From Nitrospirales bacterium (lineage in GTDB: Bacteria > Nitrospirota > Nitrospiria > Nitrospirales > UBA8639), in contig JALDRJ010000002.1 in the NCBI GenBank assembly GCA_031315865.1, positions 2,268,001-2,332,000 of the forward strand: a stretch of 64,000 bases of DNA. Direction: 5' to 3'. Below, one piece after another: positions 43,134 to 51,028 of this stretch; the stretch's first letter is position 1; each line of letters starts with the position of its first letter. Position numbers and translations under genes: made by a program. Below the pieces are notes generated by a model that saw only the letters and a list, made by a program, of their open reading frames with translations, was not told the origin of the DNA and did no database searches.

Positions 43134-44069
43134 ATGATTCATAGCTTAAGCTTTGATATCGAAGAACATTTTCAAGTTGCGGCGTTTGATTGTCCAGCGA
43201 GACGCCGACATTGGGATGTTCTCCATAGCCGGGTCGAGCAGAGCACGGAGACAATTCTCTCACTTCTTGAAGCCGTCAATGTTCAGGCTACGATGTTTAT
43301 ACTCGGGTGGGTAGCTGAGCGACATGGTGGCTTAGTGAAACGACTGGCCAATGCTGGCCATGAAATTGCCTGTCATGGGTATTCGCATGAATTAATAGCC
43401 GCCCAGAGTCCGGCGAAATTTCGGGAAGATATTCGAACAGCTAAAAAGATTCTAGAAGATCTTACTGGAAAGGCAGTCTTGGGGTACCGTGCTCCGACAT
43501 TTTCGATTACGAAAGAGACAAAATGGGCCCTGCCGATTCTGGTTGAAGAGGGCTATCTCTATGATTCCAGCATCGTTCCCGCTGTTCATGATTCGTATGG
43601 AATCCCTGATGCTTCTCCAGACATTCATTCGTTAGCCACAAGTTCAGGCGTACTCTGGGAGGTTCCTCCGTCAACGTATAAAATTGGCTGGATGAGAGTG
43701 CCAATTGGAGGAGGAGGGTATTTCCGTTTGTTACCGTATCGGTTGTTTAAGTGGTTTTTGACGCAAGTAGAAAATGAGGGCATGCCACTGGTGATGTATT
43801 TTCATCCGTGGGAGCTTGATCCTGATCAGCCGAAGATGAAAGGCTCTTTGCTTTCTGGTTTTCGTCATTATGTGAATTTACAAAAAACCCAGAGACGCCT
43901 GGCTGCACTTCTTCAAGATTTTCAATTTGCCCCAATCTGTACTGCGCTTCCCTCTTTCCCCTCTTTGATTGGAGAAGACTCCAATCATTCGCAGACGCAT
44001 CAGGCGATAGATTCGTTGACTAATCCATCGTGTTCAGGCAATTCAGCCATTAGTCATTTTCAGAAATAA
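43134..44069 (+). CDS. XrtA-associated polysaccharide deacetylase (DUF3473 type)
   Basis: A 311-residue NodB-fold deacetylase. Asp8 in SFDIEEHFQVAAF and His81 and His85 in CHGYSHEL form the metal-binding triad, and GYRAPTFSITKET is the next conserved block. The C-terminal HPWELDPDQPKM belongs to the DUF3473 extension typical of exosortase-linked exopolysaccharide loci (TIGR03006). It probably removes acetyl groups from N-acetyl sugars of the polymer. No signal peptide is seen, so it would act in the cytoplasm or need another route. Confidence 0.9.
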   Translation: MIHSLSFDIEEHFQVAAFDCPARRRHWDVLHSRVEQSTETILSLLEAVNVQATMFILGWVAERHGGLVKRLANAGHEIACHGYSHELIAAQSPAKFREDIRTAKKILEDLTGKAVLGYRAPTFSITKETKWALPILVEEGYLYDSSIVPAVHDSYGIPDASPDIHSLATSSGVLWEVPPSTYKIGWMRVPIGGGGYFRLLPYRLFKWFLTQVENEGMPLVMYFHPWELDPDQPKMKGSLLSGFRHYVNLQKTQRRLAALLQDFQFAPICTALPSFPSLIGEDSNHSQTHQAIDSLTNPSCSGNSAISHFQK

Positions 44070-44181: not shown

Positions 44182-45390
44182 ATGCATATTCTGTTTCTTG
44201 CCCCTCATCCATTTTACCAGGATCGCGGGACTCCCATAGCCGTTAACCTTATCCTTCGGGTGTTAGCCGAGAGAGGTGAAACGGTTGATGTCCTGACTTA
44301 CCATGAAGGCAGTCAAGTACAGCATCCTGGCATGACCTTGAGGCGTATACGTTTCCTCCCGTTTATTCGGAATATTCGGCCAGGGTTTTCTTTCAAGAAA
44401 CTACTGTGTGACGGGGTGATGATGATCCACGCCCTGCTGCTAGCCAGGAAGCATCACTATCACGTCGTTCATGCAGTAGAAGAGTCTGTTTTTATGGCCC
44501 TTCTCATCAAGACTCTCTTTCGTATTCCCTACGTGTATGATATGGATTCTTCCCTGCCACAACAGATGGTTGAGAGCAATGTATGTTTTCGCCCTTTTCT
44601 CGTCATGCTATCTTTTTGCGAATCACTGGCTATCAAGCGGGCCAAGGCCGTCGTTCCAGTTTGTGATGTGTTAGGCGATCTTGCAAGGCGTCATGGAGCC
44701 CAGGAAGTCAGCATTCTCCAAGATATTCCCTTGCTCGAGGGGGGGTGTTCTCCAGAATTATCCAAGAAGGACGTTGAGGCTGAACGTGAAAGAATCACGA
44801 TTACCTATGTCGGAAACCTAGAGCCCTATCAAGGGATCGATCTGTTACTGGAGAGTTTCTCTCTTCTCACACGATATGTCGATCACGCCGATCTTGTGAT
44901 CGTAGGAGGAACGAAAGCGCACATTCAACGTTATGAGCAAAAGTCTCGAAATTTAGGTATAGGGGGGCGGGTCTGTTTTTGGGGAGCGAAACCCACCGAT
45001 CAATTAGCATTCTTTCTCGCGAAGTCCGACATTTTAGTTTCTCCACGGATACAGGGAAATAATACTCCAATGAAACTGTATTCCTATTTGCAAAGTGGGA
45101 AACCGATCGTCGCAACCAACTTACCCACGCATACGCAAGTACTGACTGACAGAGTCGCTATGCTCGTCGGTCCTGATCCTGAGGCATTTTCACGAGGGAT
45201 GCTTTGCCTCATTCAAGATTCGGCGCTGTCTCAAGCACTTGGTGAGGCTGGTCGGATTCTCGTCGAACAACATTACAGTTTTGCCTCGTTTCGTGCCAAG
45301 GTAAACAATCTGTATGACTGGTTGGCCAGCACGTTGGTTTCTGAATCAAAACAGGAAGAGTATTTCCATTCTCCGTATTCTTCCATTTAA
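44182..45390 (+). CDS. Family 4 glycosyltransferase
   Basis: A GT-B fold glycosyltransferase of 402 residues. The N-terminal MHILFLAPHPFYQDRGTPIA matches the group found in exosortase-associated loci, and the C-terminal donor domain has ITYVGNLEPYQGIDLLLE and the NNTPMKLYSYLQSGKPIVA nucleotide-sugar motif with acidic/polar residues. It adds a sugar during repeat-unit assembly; the specificity cannot be read. The spacer to the deacetylase is 112 bp. Confidence 0.85.
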   Translation: MHILFLAPHPFYQDRGTPIAVNLILRVLAERGETVDVLTYHEGSQVQHPGMTLRRIRFLPFIRNIRPGFSFKKLLCDGVMMIHALLLARKHHYHVVHAVEESVFMALLIKTLFRIPYVYDMDSSLPQQMVESNVCFRPFLVMLSFCESLAIKRAKAVVPVCDVLGDLARRHGAQEVSILQDIPLLEGGCSPELSKKDVEAERERITITYVGNLEPYQGIDLLLESFSLLTRYVDHADLVIVGGTKAHIQRYEQKSRNLGIGGRVCFWGAKPTDQLAFFLAKSDILVSPRIQGNNTPMKLYSYLQSGKPIVATNLPTHTQVLTDRVAMLVGPDPEAFSRGMLCLIQDSALSQALGEAGRILVEQHYSFASFRAKVNNLYDWLASTLVSESKQEEYFHSPYSSI

Positions 45391-46056: not shown

Positions 46057-46848
46057 ATGGTATCGACAGAACCTGACACGAGAGTTTTATCTCAGTCCAA
46101 CGTCATTGCGAAAAAACCTCTCGTCAAGAGTTTAGCGGAATCTGAAACCTCCACCTTGAAGAAATATCAAAATTTTTTCGTCGGTTCATCAAGTTTGTTG
46201 GCCTTGCTGAAGTTTGAATTTCTCACCGTTTTTCTCGGCCCTCTACCTGGCGCATTAGGGCTGTTGCTGCGGAAACAACTATTTCCCTCGTTATGCAAGA
46301 AGGTCGGTAAGGGTGTCGTGTGGGGCAGAAATATATCACTGCGACATCCAGGAAAGATCACGCTTGGAGATCGCGTGGCGATCGACGATCATTGTCTGGT
46401 GGATGCCAAGGGAGGAGAGCCGGAAGGAATCACGATCGGAAACGATGTCTTGATCGCGAGAAGCTCGATTATCCAAGCCAAAAATGGTCCGATTACTATC
46501 GGTGCCCATTGCTCAATCGGCAGTCAATGCCAGTTGAGTTCAGTCGGTGGCATCACGTTGGGCACGTCGGTGATGATGGCCGGGCAATGTTACGTCGGAG
46601 GAGGACGTTACCATACGGCTGACCGGGCCATCCCAATGGCGGAGCAAGGGCTCTATTCCAACGGTCCTGTGGTCATTGGAAATGACGTCTGGATTGGTTC
46701 TGGCGTGATTGTGCAAGATGGTGTGCGGGTAGGAAATGGCTGTGTCATTGGGTCGGGTGCAGTGGTGACCGAAGATATCCCTGATTTTGCTATCGTGATT
46801 CCAAACCGTAAGCTTCTGTTCCTCCCACGAGGAGAGTCGCTGACGTAA
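46057..46848 (+). CDS. Left-handed beta-helix acyltransferase
   Basis: A 263-residue protein whose C-terminal two thirds is hexapeptide-repeat (LbH) structure, with ITIGNDVLIARSSIIQAKNG, VVIGNDVWIGSGVIVQDGV and the end VIGSGAVVTEDIPD typical of sugar O- or N-acyltransferases. The first 75 residues are a less usual extension with a hydrophobic segment (LLALLKFEFLTVFLGPLPGALGLLL), which may associate with the membrane. GAGGGGG lies just upstream of the ATG. It is 16 bp upstream of the E1 gene, so it is a good candidate for the enzyme that uses the acyl group made by the following three genes. Confidence 0.88.
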   Translation: MVSTEPDTRVLSQSNVIAKKPLVKSLAESETSTLKKYQNFFVGSSSLLALLKFEFLTVFLGPLPGALGLLLRKQLFPSLCKKVGKGVVWGRNISLRHPGKITLGDRVAIDDHCLVDAKGGEPEGITIGNDVLIARSSIIQAKNGPITIGAHCSIGSQCQLSSVGGITLGTSVMMAGQCYVGGGRYHTADRAIPMAEQGLYSNGPVVIGNDVWIGSGVIVQDGVRVGNGCVIGSGAVVTEDIPDFAIVIPNRKLLFLPRGESLT

Positions 46849-46864
46849 GGAGATATTAACAGGT

Positions 46865-48844
46865 GTGTCTGCCAAAAAAACCATGATTACTGAACAATCT
46901 TCTCAAGCTTCGGTTCAACTGTACGCCAAAGCGATATTGATTCGCAGTGTGGAGCAGCGTTTGCTGGAACTTTTTAAAGAGGGACGGTTGTTTGGGACGG
47001 TACATACCTGTATCGGTCAGGAGTGGACTGGAGTGGCCGTCACTGAAGCGTTGCGAGACGGGGATCTGATCTTTAGCAATCATCGTTGTCATGGTCATTA
47101 TTTAGCCAAGACAGGCGATGTCGAAGGACTCATCGGCGAGATTATGGGTAAACAGAATGGCATGTGCGGTGGACGAGGCGGGAGTCAACATATTTGTTCC
47201 CAGGGATTCTATAGTAATGGAATTCAAGGCGGGATTGTCCCGGTCGCGGCTGGTCTGGCCTTGGCGCAGAAACTTTCAGGGACGGGATGTATCGCTGTTG
47301 TCTTCATCGGAGATGGAACATTAGGCGAAGGGGCGTTATACGAGACGTTGAATATGGCCTCCAAATGGGAATTGCCATTACTCATCGTTCTTGAGAATAA
47401 TTTCTATGCTCAGAGTACGCCGCAACACCAAACCCTCGCAGGTGATATTCTTGCACGAGGTGATGCATTCGGAATAAAAACGGCTCATGGCAATACCTGG
47501 AATCCGGAGGAACTGTTAGTGAGATCTGCGGAGAGCGTGCAATACGTACGAAATGAATGCCGCCCTCTCTTTCTCCAGATTGACACGTATCGGCTCATGG
47601 CTCATTCCAAAGGAGATGATGATCGTGCTCCGGAGGAAGTCAACGAATATTGGGCAAGGGATCCCATTGAATCCTTTCGACAACACACAGATAGTCAGCA
47701 AATTGAAGAAATTGATCGTACGATACAAGCGAGTATTGATCTGGCCGTGTCTCGGTCTGACGCCACCCCTTACTCAGAGGATAATGCCCAGGATGAGGAT
47801 AGACGAGAATGGTCCCTACTCAAATGGACCAAGACGTCGATCCCTGCATCTGAACGGATGGTGAATGTCATACACAGCTCGTTTCAGCGAAACATGCAGC
47901 GCGATCATAAAATTCTCTTGATTGGAGAGGATATCGAAGGGCCATACGGAGGAGCGTTTAAAGTTACGAAGAATTTGAGCCATGAGTTCCCGGGGCGTGT
48001 CAGAAATACACCTATTAGTGAAGCCGCTCTGGTGGGGTTGGGCAACGGTCTTGCTCTCAGTGGGTTTCTCCCAGTGTGCGAAGTGATGTTCGGTGATTTC
48101 CTCAGTTTAACCTTTGATCAGCTGTTAAACCATGCATCGAAATTTCGTTATATGTATAACGACCAGGTTCATGTGCCATTGATCGTGCGTACACCGATGG
48201 GAGGCAAGCGAGGGTATGGTCCGACCCATAGCCAGAGTATTGAAAAGCATTTTATGGGACTGCCGGGTACGACTATGTTGGCACTGCACCCTCGCTATGA
48301 CCCTGGGCTTGTATACGATGAACTTTTCTCGTCCATCGATCGCCCGACGATCGTCATAGAGAATAAGCTGCTCTACGGTCTTCGCGTCACAGATCAGGTT
48401 CCGAAAGGGTTTGTCCTTGAGCACTCACATGAGCAATACCCGAGCACCCGCATTCGTCCCATGGGTGATCCAGACATCACGATCGTGTGTTACGGCGGGA
48501 TGCTCGTCGATGTCGAACGGGCGATCCAGGAGTTATGCGATGAACGGGAGATCTTCTGTGAAGTGATCTGTCCATTGCAGTTGTACCCGTTTAATCCATG
48601 GCCGGTGATTGAGTCGGTTCAGAAAACTCGTAAGCTCCTGATCGTGGAAGAAGGAATACGGTTTGCGGCACTTGGGTCAGAATTGTTAGCCCAGGTTGCA
48701 GAGGTGACGCCTGGTGTGCTTGAGCGCGTTCGTCGGGTCTCTTCACCGAGTCATCCAATTCCTTCTTGCGGTCCTCTTGAAAAGCAATGTCTTCCAGGAG
48801 AATGTCACGTCGTTGAGGCTGTTAGTCATATGCTTGCGTCGTAG
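46865..48844 (+). CDS. 2-oxoacid dehydrogenase E1, alpha and beta fused
   Basis: A thiamine-diphosphate 2-oxoacid dehydrogenase in which both E1 chains are on one polypeptide. Residues about 10-320 are E1-alpha (HTCIGQEWTGVAV, HRCHGHYLAKTGD, and the TPP motif GDGTLGEGALYETLNMA beginning at residue 149 and ending in ENN), and about 335-659 are E1-beta (LIGEDIEGPYGGAFKVTKNL, DFLSLTFDQLLNHASKFRYM). It decarboxylates a 2-oxo acid and passes the acyl group to the lipoyl arm of E2. The substrate (pyruvate, branched-chain or other) cannot be told from sequence. The start is GTG at 46865, with AAGGAGAT upstream. No E3 gene is near. Confidence 0.88.
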   Translation: MSAKKTMITEQSSQASVQLYAKAILIRSVEQRLLELFKEGRLFGTVHTCIGQEWTGVAVTEALRDGDLIFSNHRCHGHYLAKTGDVEGLIGEIMGKQNGMCGGRGGSQHICSQGFYSNGIQGGIVPVAAGLALAQKLSGTGCIAVVFIGDGTLGEGALYETLNMASKWELPLLIVLENNFYAQSTPQHQTLAGDILARGDAFGIKTAHGNTWNPEELLVRSAESVQYVRNECRPLFLQIDTYRLMAHSKGDDDRAPEEVNEYWARDPIESFRQHTDSQQIEEIDRTIQASIDLAVSRSDATPYSEDNAQDEDRREWSLLKWTKTSIPASERMVNVIHSSFQRNMQRDHKILLIGEDIEGPYGGAFKVTKNLSHEFPGRVRNTPISEAALVGLGNGLALSGFLPVCEVMFGDFLSLTFDQLLNHASKFRYMYNDQVHVPLIVRTPMGGKRGYGPTHSQSIEKHFMGLPGTTMLALHPRYDPGLVYDELFSSIDRPTIVIENKLLYGLRVTDQVPKGFVLEHSHEQYPSTRIRPMGDPDITIVCYGGMLVDVERAIQELCDEREIFCEVICPLQLYPFNPWPVIESVQKTRKLLIVEEGIRFAALGSELLAQVAEVTPGVLERVRRVSSPSHPIPSCGPLEKQCLPGECHVVEAVSHMLAS

Positions 48845-48956
48845 GATTCGCCTGCGCCAGCCAGAGCGTTATTTGTGCGTTTGTGTTTGAGAGAAAACTC
48901 TACACTATGTGCGACTCTTCAAAAAACCCAGACACAATAGGGATCAACGAGCCGTC

Positions 48957-50342
48957 ATGAAACACAGCACCCCGGTCATTATTCCACAGGACAATGTGAA
49001 TGACGAGTCTGTGACGTTGCTGTCTTGGTCTGTTGCAAATGGAGAGAAAGTTACCCAAGGACAAATGATCGCCGAGATCGAAACGAGCAAGGCCGTGATG
49101 GAAATCGAAGCTCCCGCCTCTGGGATGTTGGTGTATTCTATTGAGCCTGGAAACGATATTAATGTCGGCGCCACGTTGTGTACCATTCAGGGGGAGGAGG
49201 CTACTGGTGATTCATTAGAGATTTCGACGATCGTTGAAACTCCGACGTTTTCTCTTGAAACGACTAAGAATGGCAATGCGGGAAATGGCTCAACATCCGT
49301 GTCTTCCGATATACCGACGCATTTTACCAAGAAGGCCCAAGCGTTATTAGAAGAACGCAAGCTTTCTCCTGAGAGGTTTTCCGGTAAGGGGCTCGTCCGA
49401 ACTCAGGACATTCTCGTTGAGCTTGGAGAAGCCCCGCGACCATCCTTACCAAGGTCCGTGGTGCTTCCAACAGAACAGTCGAAGTCCTTATCTGCTCCGG
49501 TTCCGGCCTCGGGCATTCCGTTTCGGACTGAAAAGTTATCGAAGAGTAAACGGACGGAGATCGGTTACTTAACGTCTGGCTATCAAAATTCACTGCCGAG
49601 TGTCATCACGGTATCGATACCTACAAAGGGCCTGCGTGCTGCAGTCGATCAGTATCAAGGAGTCTCGGCGACGACGAGCGCGGTGATTCTATTCGAAGCT
49701 GCGCGTCTACTGCGGCACTACCCGTTTTTCAATGCTTTTTTTCAATCGGAATCTGTCAACTTTTACGAAGAGGTCAATATTGGGTTTGCGATCGATGGGG
49801 ATTTGGGATTGAAGGTGCCTGTGATTCGTGCCGCGGACACCAAAAGCATTGCAGACATCACTCAAGAGATGCAAGAACTCATGGTCGCATACCTGAATAA
49901 TTCGTTGACCAGCCACGACCTCCAAGGTGGAACTTTCACCATGACAGATCTTTCAGGGGAAGGGGTGTTTACTTTTCACCCACTGATCAATCAAGGGCAA
50001 TCTGCGATCTTGGGAGTGGGAGGGGAATGTTATTCGCCGGGAAGCCGGGAAGGCGTGTTTCATCTCATCCTGGCTTTTGATCATCAAGTATCTGAAGGAC
50101 GACAAGCGGCGAAGTTCTTAAGAGAGTTGGGCGATCATTTACAGGCTTACGAAGCCGCGCTTGACGGAGCACGTTGTGACGGAGAAGACCTGAAAGCGAT
50201 TTCTTGTTCGCGTTGTTTGACCCCTATGGCCAATATCGAGGAATGGGATCACTTTCAACATTGGGATCACTTTATGGTGCAAATGGTAAAACCCAATGGC
50301 CAAACCGGGTATCTTTGCAGTGTCTGCCTCAGAGGATGGTAA
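48957..50342 (+). CDS. 2-oxoacid dehydrogenase E2-type acyltransferase with zinc-ribbon tail
   Basis: From Met at 48957 the 461-residue protein has a lipoyl domain (lipoylated Lys45 in IETSKAVMEIEAP), an E3/E1-binding-type domain (FTKKAQALLEERKLSPERF), and the CoA-acyltransferase catalytic domain. The active-site histidine is His376 in FDHQVSEGRQ, where the family has HxxxDG, so the Asp is Glu here. Beyond the usual C-terminus there is a 50-residue tail with Cys417, Cys420, Cys454 and Cys457, a zinc ribbon, and a repeated WDHF. It should transfer the acyl group to CoA or to a carrier protein. A 477-residue version from GTG 48909 is less likely. Confidence 0.85.
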   Translation: MKHSTPVIIPQDNVNDESVTLLSWSVANGEKVTQGQMIAEIETSKAVMEIEAPASGMLVYSIEPGNDINVGATLCTIQGEEATGDSLEISTIVETPTFSLETTKNGNAGNGSTSVSSDIPTHFTKKAQALLEERKLSPERFSGKGLVRTQDILVELGEAPRPSLPRSVVLPTEQSKSLSAPVPASGIPFRTEKLSKSKRTEIGYLTSGYQNSLPSVITVSIPTKGLRAAVDQYQGVSATTSAVILFEAARLLRHYPFFNAFFQSESVNFYEEVNIGFAIDGDLGLKVPVIRAADTKSIADITQEMQELMVAYLNNSLTSHDLQGGTFTMTDLSGEGVFTFHPLINQGQSAILGVGGECYSPGSREGVFHLILAFDHQVSEGRQAAKFLRELGDHLQAYEAALDGARCDGEDLKAISCSRCLTPMANIEEWDHFQHWDHFMVQMVKPNGQTGYLCSVCLRGW

Positions 50343-50350
50343 ACGAAGCA

Positions 50351-51028
50351 ATGAACCATGAGCTCAGGCAAATTGTGGCGGACCTATTTGAGACCGATGT
50401 CGAAGCTGTGAATGCCGACTTTGTATTGTCGACCAGGCGCATGCAAGGTTCATTAGCCAGGGCCAAACTTGATGCCGCAATTCGACATCGATTGGGGATC
50501 AAATCTCGATCCGTCTATTCCGTGAAGTCGTACGGCGAATTACAGAGCGCCCTCTTCGGGTCGAATGGACAAGACTCTGAAACTAACGCATCGCCTGCGG
50601 GCATCACCAATGGTACGCATTTGGATGCCTCCAAAATGTCGTCGAAAACAACGCTAGAGTTCGGCTCTTCGCTGAGTTGTGGCATCGATATCGAGATGGT
50701 CGAAAGTTTTCCAGAAGTTGAGGATTATTGGAAAGATTCGTTTTATACGAATGCTTTTTCATCCGTTGAAATCGCGTATTGCTTACTCCAAGAGCATCCT
50801 CGTATGCATTTTGCGGCGCGCTGGTGTGCCAAAGAGGCGTTGAAGAAGTGCGATCGTGTCTATCTGAATGAGGATATGAAGAACATTGAATTGGTATCAA
50901 ACTCTGATAGCCCACCCAGGTTTCGTGTCTATCGAAGTGGCCATCCAGAAGTTATTCAAGTTGCCGTCAGCATTTCTCATACCCCGCACCTGGCGGTCGC
51001 GATGGTGTGTAAAACCGCTGGGGCATGA
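50351..51028 (+). CDS. Acyl-carrier-like domain fused to an AcpS-type phosphopantetheinyl transferase
   Basis: The 225-residue protein has two parts. Residues 1-70 resemble an acyl carrier protein (helix ELRQIVADLFE, then GSLARAKLDAAIRHRLGI where ACP has DSL), with Ser34 at the position that takes phosphopantetheine. Residues about 105-225 are a holo-ACP synthase: GIDIEMVESF (Asp113), HFAARWCAKEALKKC (Glu162) and SISHTPHLAVAM. The carrier part is basic where ACPs are acidic. The start lies 8 bp after the E2 stop; Met at 50336 is an alternative. Translation coupling with E2 suggests that it supplies or charges the acyl acceptor for the E2 reaction. Confidence 0.75.
   Translation: MNHELRQIVADLFETDVEAVNADFVLSTRRMQGSLARAKLDAAIRHRLGIKSRSVYSVKSYGELQSALFGSNGQDSETNASPAGITNGTHLDASKMSSKTTLEFGSSLSCGIDIEMVESFPEVEDYWKDSFYTNAFSSVEIAYCLLQEHPRMHFAARWCAKEALKKCDRVYLNEDMKNIELVSNSDSPPRFRVYRSGHPEVIQVAVSISHTPHLAVAMVCKTAGA

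Follow-up and report, generated by a model that had tools for sequence, protein, structure and literature searches.

A probable self-activating acyl carrier fused to an AcpS-type phosphopantetheinyl transferase in a polysaccharide cluster of a Nitrospirales bacterium

Introduction

The two-component transketolases of quinocarcin (QncN/QncL/QncM) and naphthyridinomycin (NapB/NapD/NapC) biosynthesis bring together a thiamine-dependent E1, a lipoyl-bearing E2 and a dedicated acyl carrier protein (ACP). QncN, QncL and QncM make a glycolic-acyl unit on the ACP, and the homologous SclQ1-4 of the scleric acid cluster adjoin a phosphopantetheinyl transferase (PPTase), SclP (PMC6335953), while the same type of enzyme has been described for dnacin (PMC7570522). 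The locus analysed here, in a stretch of 64,000 nucleotides from a Nitrospirales bacterium (the window), resembles these systems in keeping E1, E2 and a dedicated carrier together, and the scleric acid cluster also in encoding a dedicated PPTase alongside. It differs from all of them in its single-chain E1, which combines alpha and beta, in a carrier and PPTase joined in one chain with a PPTase half of the AcpS type, in the zinc-ribbon tail of the E2, and in lying within a polysaccharide cluster that lacks a non-ribosomal peptide synthetase.

Carriers that share a polypeptide with a PPTase have been described in other contexts. The alpha subunit of fungal type I fatty acid synthase (FAS) contains a carrier and a C-terminal PPT domain of AcpS fold, but it is a megasynthase of ~1,887 residues, whereas the protein in the window has just two domains in 225 residues and begins directly with its carrier. 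The enediyne polyketide synthases CalE8 and SgcE also have an internal carrier and a PPTase domain on one chain, and in this carrier the serine motif is non-canonical and helix II is not acidic (PMC3107222). They are, however, large iterative synthases, and their PPTase type and acyl group are unlike those in the window. In the Dlt system the carrier DltC works with the MBOAT protein DltB, so that a small carrier-borne acyl group reaches a cell-envelope polymer, and an MBOAT is found also in one cassette related to ours (genome G379, below). Dlt, however, loads D-alanine via an adenylating ligase, whereas loading in the window would be by E1/E2 and the acyltransferase is of the hexapeptide type. 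Literature searches on self-phosphopantetheinylation, glycolylated exopolysaccharides and the NPIRA genomes turned up nothing that directly anticipates so small a fusion. As far as our searches reach, the fusion, the charge swap between its halves and its polysaccharide setting are new, while the parts are of known kinds. We think it likely that the protein is a self-activating carrier, loaded by E1/E2 with a two-carbon group, probably glycolyl, which is then passed to a sugar of a polysaccharide.

Organisation and distribution of the locus

Profile matches identify the locus as an exosortase-A (XrtA) polysaccharide cluster, the XrtA deacetylase scoring 350.8 bits against TIGR03006 (cutoff 276), with TIGR03019 also above its cutoff. 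The genes of interest follow in the order hexapeptide (LbH) acyltransferase, E1, E2 and, last, the carrier/AcpS fusion:

43134..44069, + strand: XrtA-system polysaccharide deacetylase (DUF3473; TIGR03006), syntenic in NPIRA01 and NPIRA02
44182..45390, + strand: family 4 glycosyltransferase (PF00534), conserved upstream neighbour
46057..46848, + strand: left-handed beta-helix (hexapeptide) O-acyltransferase, WcaF-like (PF00132, 4e-13)
46865..48844, + strand: fused E1 alpha/beta thiamine-diphosphate enzyme (PF00676, PF02779 and PF02780)
48909..50342, + strand: E2 with lipoyl domain, acyltransferase domain and C-terminal ribbon (PF00364, PF00198); alternative start ATG 48957
50202..50339, + strand: zinc-ribbon-like E2 tail (SCSRC...YLCSVC; CxxC...CxxC)
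50351-51028, + strand: carrier/AcpS fusion, 225 aa
50336..51028, + strand: longer alternative reading of the fusion gene, from an in-frame ATG overlapping the E2 stop (ATGGTAA)
50351..50560, + strand: acyl-carrier domain, residues 1-70 (from fold, profile alignment and conservation)
50450..50452, + strand: Ser34 codon; the serine, where helix II starts, is the predicted site of 4'-phosphopantetheine
50561..50662, + strand: variable linker, residues 71-104 (from codon changes between homologues)
50663..51028, + strand: AcpS-type phosphopantetheinyl transferase domain (PF01648), its alpha-1 acidic; contains D113, K161 and E162

The frame of the fusion has the same position and length as in an earlier, sequence-only reading of this DNA. 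Translation may in fact begin at the ATG at 50336, in which case the protein gains five residues and Ser34 becomes Ser39. The overlap of start and stop recurs in NPIRA01 and NPIRA02, and the fusion gene is therefore probably translationally coupled to that of E2.

The full-length fusion is found also in three Nitrospirales metagenome-assembled genomes of the same genus, NPIRA01, NPIRA02 and NPIRA04, at 60-65% identity, and an alignment-based scan of genome contigs returned these three congeners only; a single-sequence scan of the contigs gave no match. The family search for further fusions that had been suggested succeeded within the genus; beyond it, the matches listed when 396 Nitrospirota genomes were searched by profile cover the AcpS part only. 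Plasmid matches likewise span the AcpS part only, and a search of phages with the fusion gave no match. Four of the genus's genomes have E1, E2 and the fusion together, and all three are unmatched, at the thresholds used, in a fifth (G001). The block together with the upstream XrtA deacetylase and glycosyltransferase is kept in NPIRA01 and NPIRA02, where the hexapeptide acyltransferase also adjoins E1 and the downstream genes vary; the NPIRA04 contig begins inside E1.

The E1/E2 pair and the nature of the acyl group

Among 72,556 plasmids the best match to the E1 is RenH of the renieramycin cluster (50.1% identity over 97%), as against ~32% identity to the PDH-type E1s of related genomes. In the tree, whose long branches were flagged by the program, the window E1, RenH, those of two other Nitrospirota genomes (G379 and G278) and three actinomycete E1s split from PDH E1 at 100/100. 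That the pair is the cell's ordinary PDH was rejected on E1 identity and this tree. An ACP gene precedes E1 in most loci of the RenH-type clade: the order ACP-E1a-E1b-E2 is annotated in Streptomyces NBC_01136, and in S. cattleyicolor and Nonomuraea the ACP gene was read from the sequence and checked with PF00550, while beside RenH/RenI there is no ACP annotation. In the window, no ACP other than the carrier half of the fusion lies beside E1/E2. The E1 belongs to the clade of RenH and ACP-linked E1s, and a lipoyl E2 and a dedicated carrier share its operon, which fits a system of the Qnc type; authentic QncN, QncL, NapB or NapD sequences were not found in the collections searched.

The two Nitrospirota relatives are organised differently from each other. 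G379 (L138:4617-10617) has a discrete ACP-E1-E2-MBOAT acyltransferase operon with no AcpS fusion, its ACP scoring just under the PF00550 cutoff; here the same chemistry would run on a separate carrier. In G278 (L139:9261-13025) E1 and E2 are followed by a lipoate-protein-ligase-like gene (PF21948), the product of which may lipoylate its own E2, and no ACP is nearby.

The window E2 has the lipoyl-lysine motif ETSKA and the acyltransferase motif DHQVSEG. Cassette E2s have ETSK (ETMK in G379) in place of the housekeeping ETDK at the lipoyl lysine, and the aspartate of DHxxxDG is replaced by E, T or N in the E2s of the window, RenI, G278, NBC_01136, S. cattleyicolor and Nonomuraea, though not in G379. 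Together these two changes may be a signature of E2s whose acyl acceptor is a carrier rather than CoA. The zinc-ribbon-like tail is kept in the genus and absent from all other E2s examined, matches from outside the genus ending before it; possibly it serves in carrier docking. The host genome encodes LipA, and next to it lies another E2-like gene (L086, G000:C2:155384-155977), with ETDTA at the lipoyl site and the histidine of DHxxxDG missing, so its product looks catalytically dead.

Could the carrier be self-activating as we propose, and E1/E2 nonetheless use pyruvate or another 2-oxo acid, so that the group carried is acetyl or some other acyl and not glycolyl? Pfam and NCBIfam label the window E1 and E2 as generic PDH-type, and the adjoining hexapeptide gene is acetyltransferase-like, which would fit. 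We nevertheless consider this rather unlikely, since the E1 falls in the clade of RenH and the ACP-linked E1s, apart from PDH, the E2 is unlike housekeeping enzymes at two sites, with ETSK for ETDK and a changed DHxxxDG aspartate, and acetyl-CoA would make a carrier unnecessary.

A diverged carrier domain at the N-terminus

Although each line of evidence is indecisive alone, the combined case for residues 1-70 being a diverged acyl carrier domain is strong. The AF2 model of this N-domain, computed from an alignment of only the four N-domains, free of any ACP, has helices at residues 3-12, 22-29, 35-48 and 58-69 (mean pLDDT 70), and Ser34 caps the second long helix in an ACP-like position, at moderate model confidence. 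Carriers or carrier complexes, judged by title, fill PDB ranks 1-35 in Foldseek, with E-values of 0.2-2 and TM ~0.5, and are on top also by VIA, where Z is at most 5.3; all these scores are weak on their own. Against a profile of 15 ACP and PCP sequences the N-domain aligns end to end in hhalign (P=1.6e-4), with Ser34 on the modified serine; the score has a z of 6.4 relative to column shuffles and was equalled by none of 150 shuffles and none of 260 natural 70-aa segments. The Pfam HMMs gave no match to the carrier half (PF00550 is absent even at E 10), a PDB sequence search with it gave no useful match, and relatives of the N-domain alone beyond chance are absent from 197 related genomes. The AF2 model of the full-length fusion is poor (pLDDT 43) and unusable for domain docking.

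The ACP-like helices that the sequence-only reading had assigned to this region are thus borne out by model and fold search, as is its placing of Ser34 at the start of helix II, and the motifs it had listed are all present (GSL at 33-35, RRM at 29-31, RAK at 37-39 and RHR at 45-47). In GSL, Gly33 stands where in most ACPs an aspartate directly precedes the modified serine. All four motifs are invariant across the genus homologues, except for RHR>RNR in one genome. Ser34, whose loss in homologues would have spoken against a carrier, is conserved in all four, and with its surroundings it is the best-conserved part of the protein: GSLARAKLDAAIR is invariant in the four genomes, with the linker drifting, and residues 26-57 (LLSTRRMQGSLARAKLDAAIRHRLG...) are nearly invariant in the four-homologue alignment, with 3 amino-acid versus 15-18 silent changes (dN 0.09-0.10, dS 1.4-2.4). 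In the linker (71-104) 28 of 31-34 codons have changed between homologues.

The AcpS half and the reversed charges

Residues 105-225 are identified by profile as an AcpS-type phosphopantetheinyl transferase, with PF01648 matching at 109-202 (E=1.3e-11, 45 bits versus a cutoff of 25) and TIGR00556 passed at 46.1 versus 45.35. The scores with the acpS equivalog models are under their cutoffs, so this half has diverged. Its closest PDB sequence match is the PPT domain of fungal FAS alpha. All four homologues share D113, K161 and E162, in agreement with the earlier description of a full AcpS with Asp113 and Glu162 as metal-site residues. The presence of a carrier and an AcpS in one chain is well supported.

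Helix II of the fusion carrier has a charge of +3, compared with -5 to -6 in AcpP of the host and related genomes. In known complexes ACP helix II docks on a region of AcpS that usually, though not universally, has a basic alpha-1. In all four fusions this region carries -4 to -7, whereas its mean over 25 further AcpS of Nitrospirota, the host Sfp-type PPTase not being among them, is +1.4 (from -2 to +6), and an arginine common to 25/25 of these is Ser or Asn in the fusions. The AcpS half thus lacks the usual basic alpha-1, which we take as a sign of altered partner specificity with superfamily membership kept. The reversal is reciprocal and, as far as charges computed from sequence can tell, fits co-adapted halves; it therefore favours self-modification, insulated from housekeeping carriers, and predicts that AcpP would react poorly with the AcpS half.

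The reversed charge of helix II had been taken to mean unusual partners, perhaps E2 or its zinc ribbon. The reversal is there, but the first partner it explains is the protein's own, oppositely reversed AcpS half. A basic helix II is not unique to the fusion, an idea we rejected on finding several PCPs of related genomes at 0 to +4. Since such PCP-like carriers are also basic there, the reversal by itself is of little use for judging E2 or the zinc ribbon, and E2 as a partner finds support in the loading role suggested by the cassette.

Roughly 23 kb downstream of the fusion lies a canonical acidic exosortase-A ACP (QASVDIES...LLDSLG; L050:12189-12488), the true helix of which is SLGILDVVTHLEEEFG, acidic. 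Beyond it is an acyl ligase-like gene, and two carrier systems coexist in the wider cluster. The carrier-like half could then be an unmodified docking adaptor, holding AcpP or this exosortase-A ACP for the AcpS in trans, a role that would suit the glycine in place of the usual aspartate and an N-domain recognised by no HMM. We find this improbable: conservation in the protein peaks at and around Ser34, the acidic docking helix of the AcpS should repel acidic AcpP-like helices, and cassettes elsewhere fill this step with a genuine ACP, for which the window offers no other candidate beside E1/E2. The earlier reading had left the choice between self-modification and docking alone; the fusion of carrier and AcpS that it assumed is supported, and docking alone is disfavoured.

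The host's only PPTase besides the fusion is Sfp-type. Other members of the family (f1) appear to be without AcpS, no AcpS-type match being among those listed despite the presence of carriers; AcpS would therefore be unneeded for AcpP there, and the AcpS of the fusion probably arrived with the cassette. That it is the organism's general holo-ACP synthase with an incidental fusion partner is very improbable, for although the genome has no second AcpS-type enzyme, a congener without the fusion and other genera of the family without a listed AcpS have ACPs as well (the Sfp-type enzyme presumably suffices), its alpha-1 charge is wrong for AcpP, and its gene is locked into the E1/E2 block.

Proposed mechanism

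In the self-activating carrier that we favour, the AcpS half would move 4'-phosphopantetheine from CoA to Ser34 of its own carrier domain, either in cis or from subunit to subunit within a trimer of the usual AcpS kind, with the basic helix II and the acidic docking helix keeping the pair apart from AcpP. E1/E2, of the QncN/QncL and NapB/NapD kind, would build a two-carbon acyl group on the lipoate of E2, with glycolyl drawn from a ketose phosphate the likeliest, and E2 would hand this group to the carrier in place of CoA. From there the hexapeptide acyltransferase encoded alongside would move it to a sugar of the exosortase-A-associated polysaccharide. Enzymes of this class often take acetyl-CoA, and the match of this one to the WcaF family (PRK10502) is below cutoff. 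The MBOAT in G379 and the hexapeptide acyltransferase in the window both suggest that an exported polymer is O-acylated, which we infer as the end step by analogy. The most specific form of the proposal, a minimal self-contained carrier made orthogonal to AcpP by a charge swap and using antibiotic-type C2 chemistry to glycolylate the exosortase-A-associated polysaccharide, is put forward tentatively.

Implications

If the proposal is correct, the fusion would be a very small natural carrier that brings its own AcpS, its orthogonality would be written in a readable charge code, and it could be usable as a self-activating carrier tag. To our knowledge, E1/E2-to-carrier loading is known from antibiotic pathways only, and it would here extend into polysaccharide decoration. 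The reading predicts a specific O-acyl group on a polymer of a Nitrospirales bacterium, whose outer polysaccharide may thus carry a new kind of decoration.
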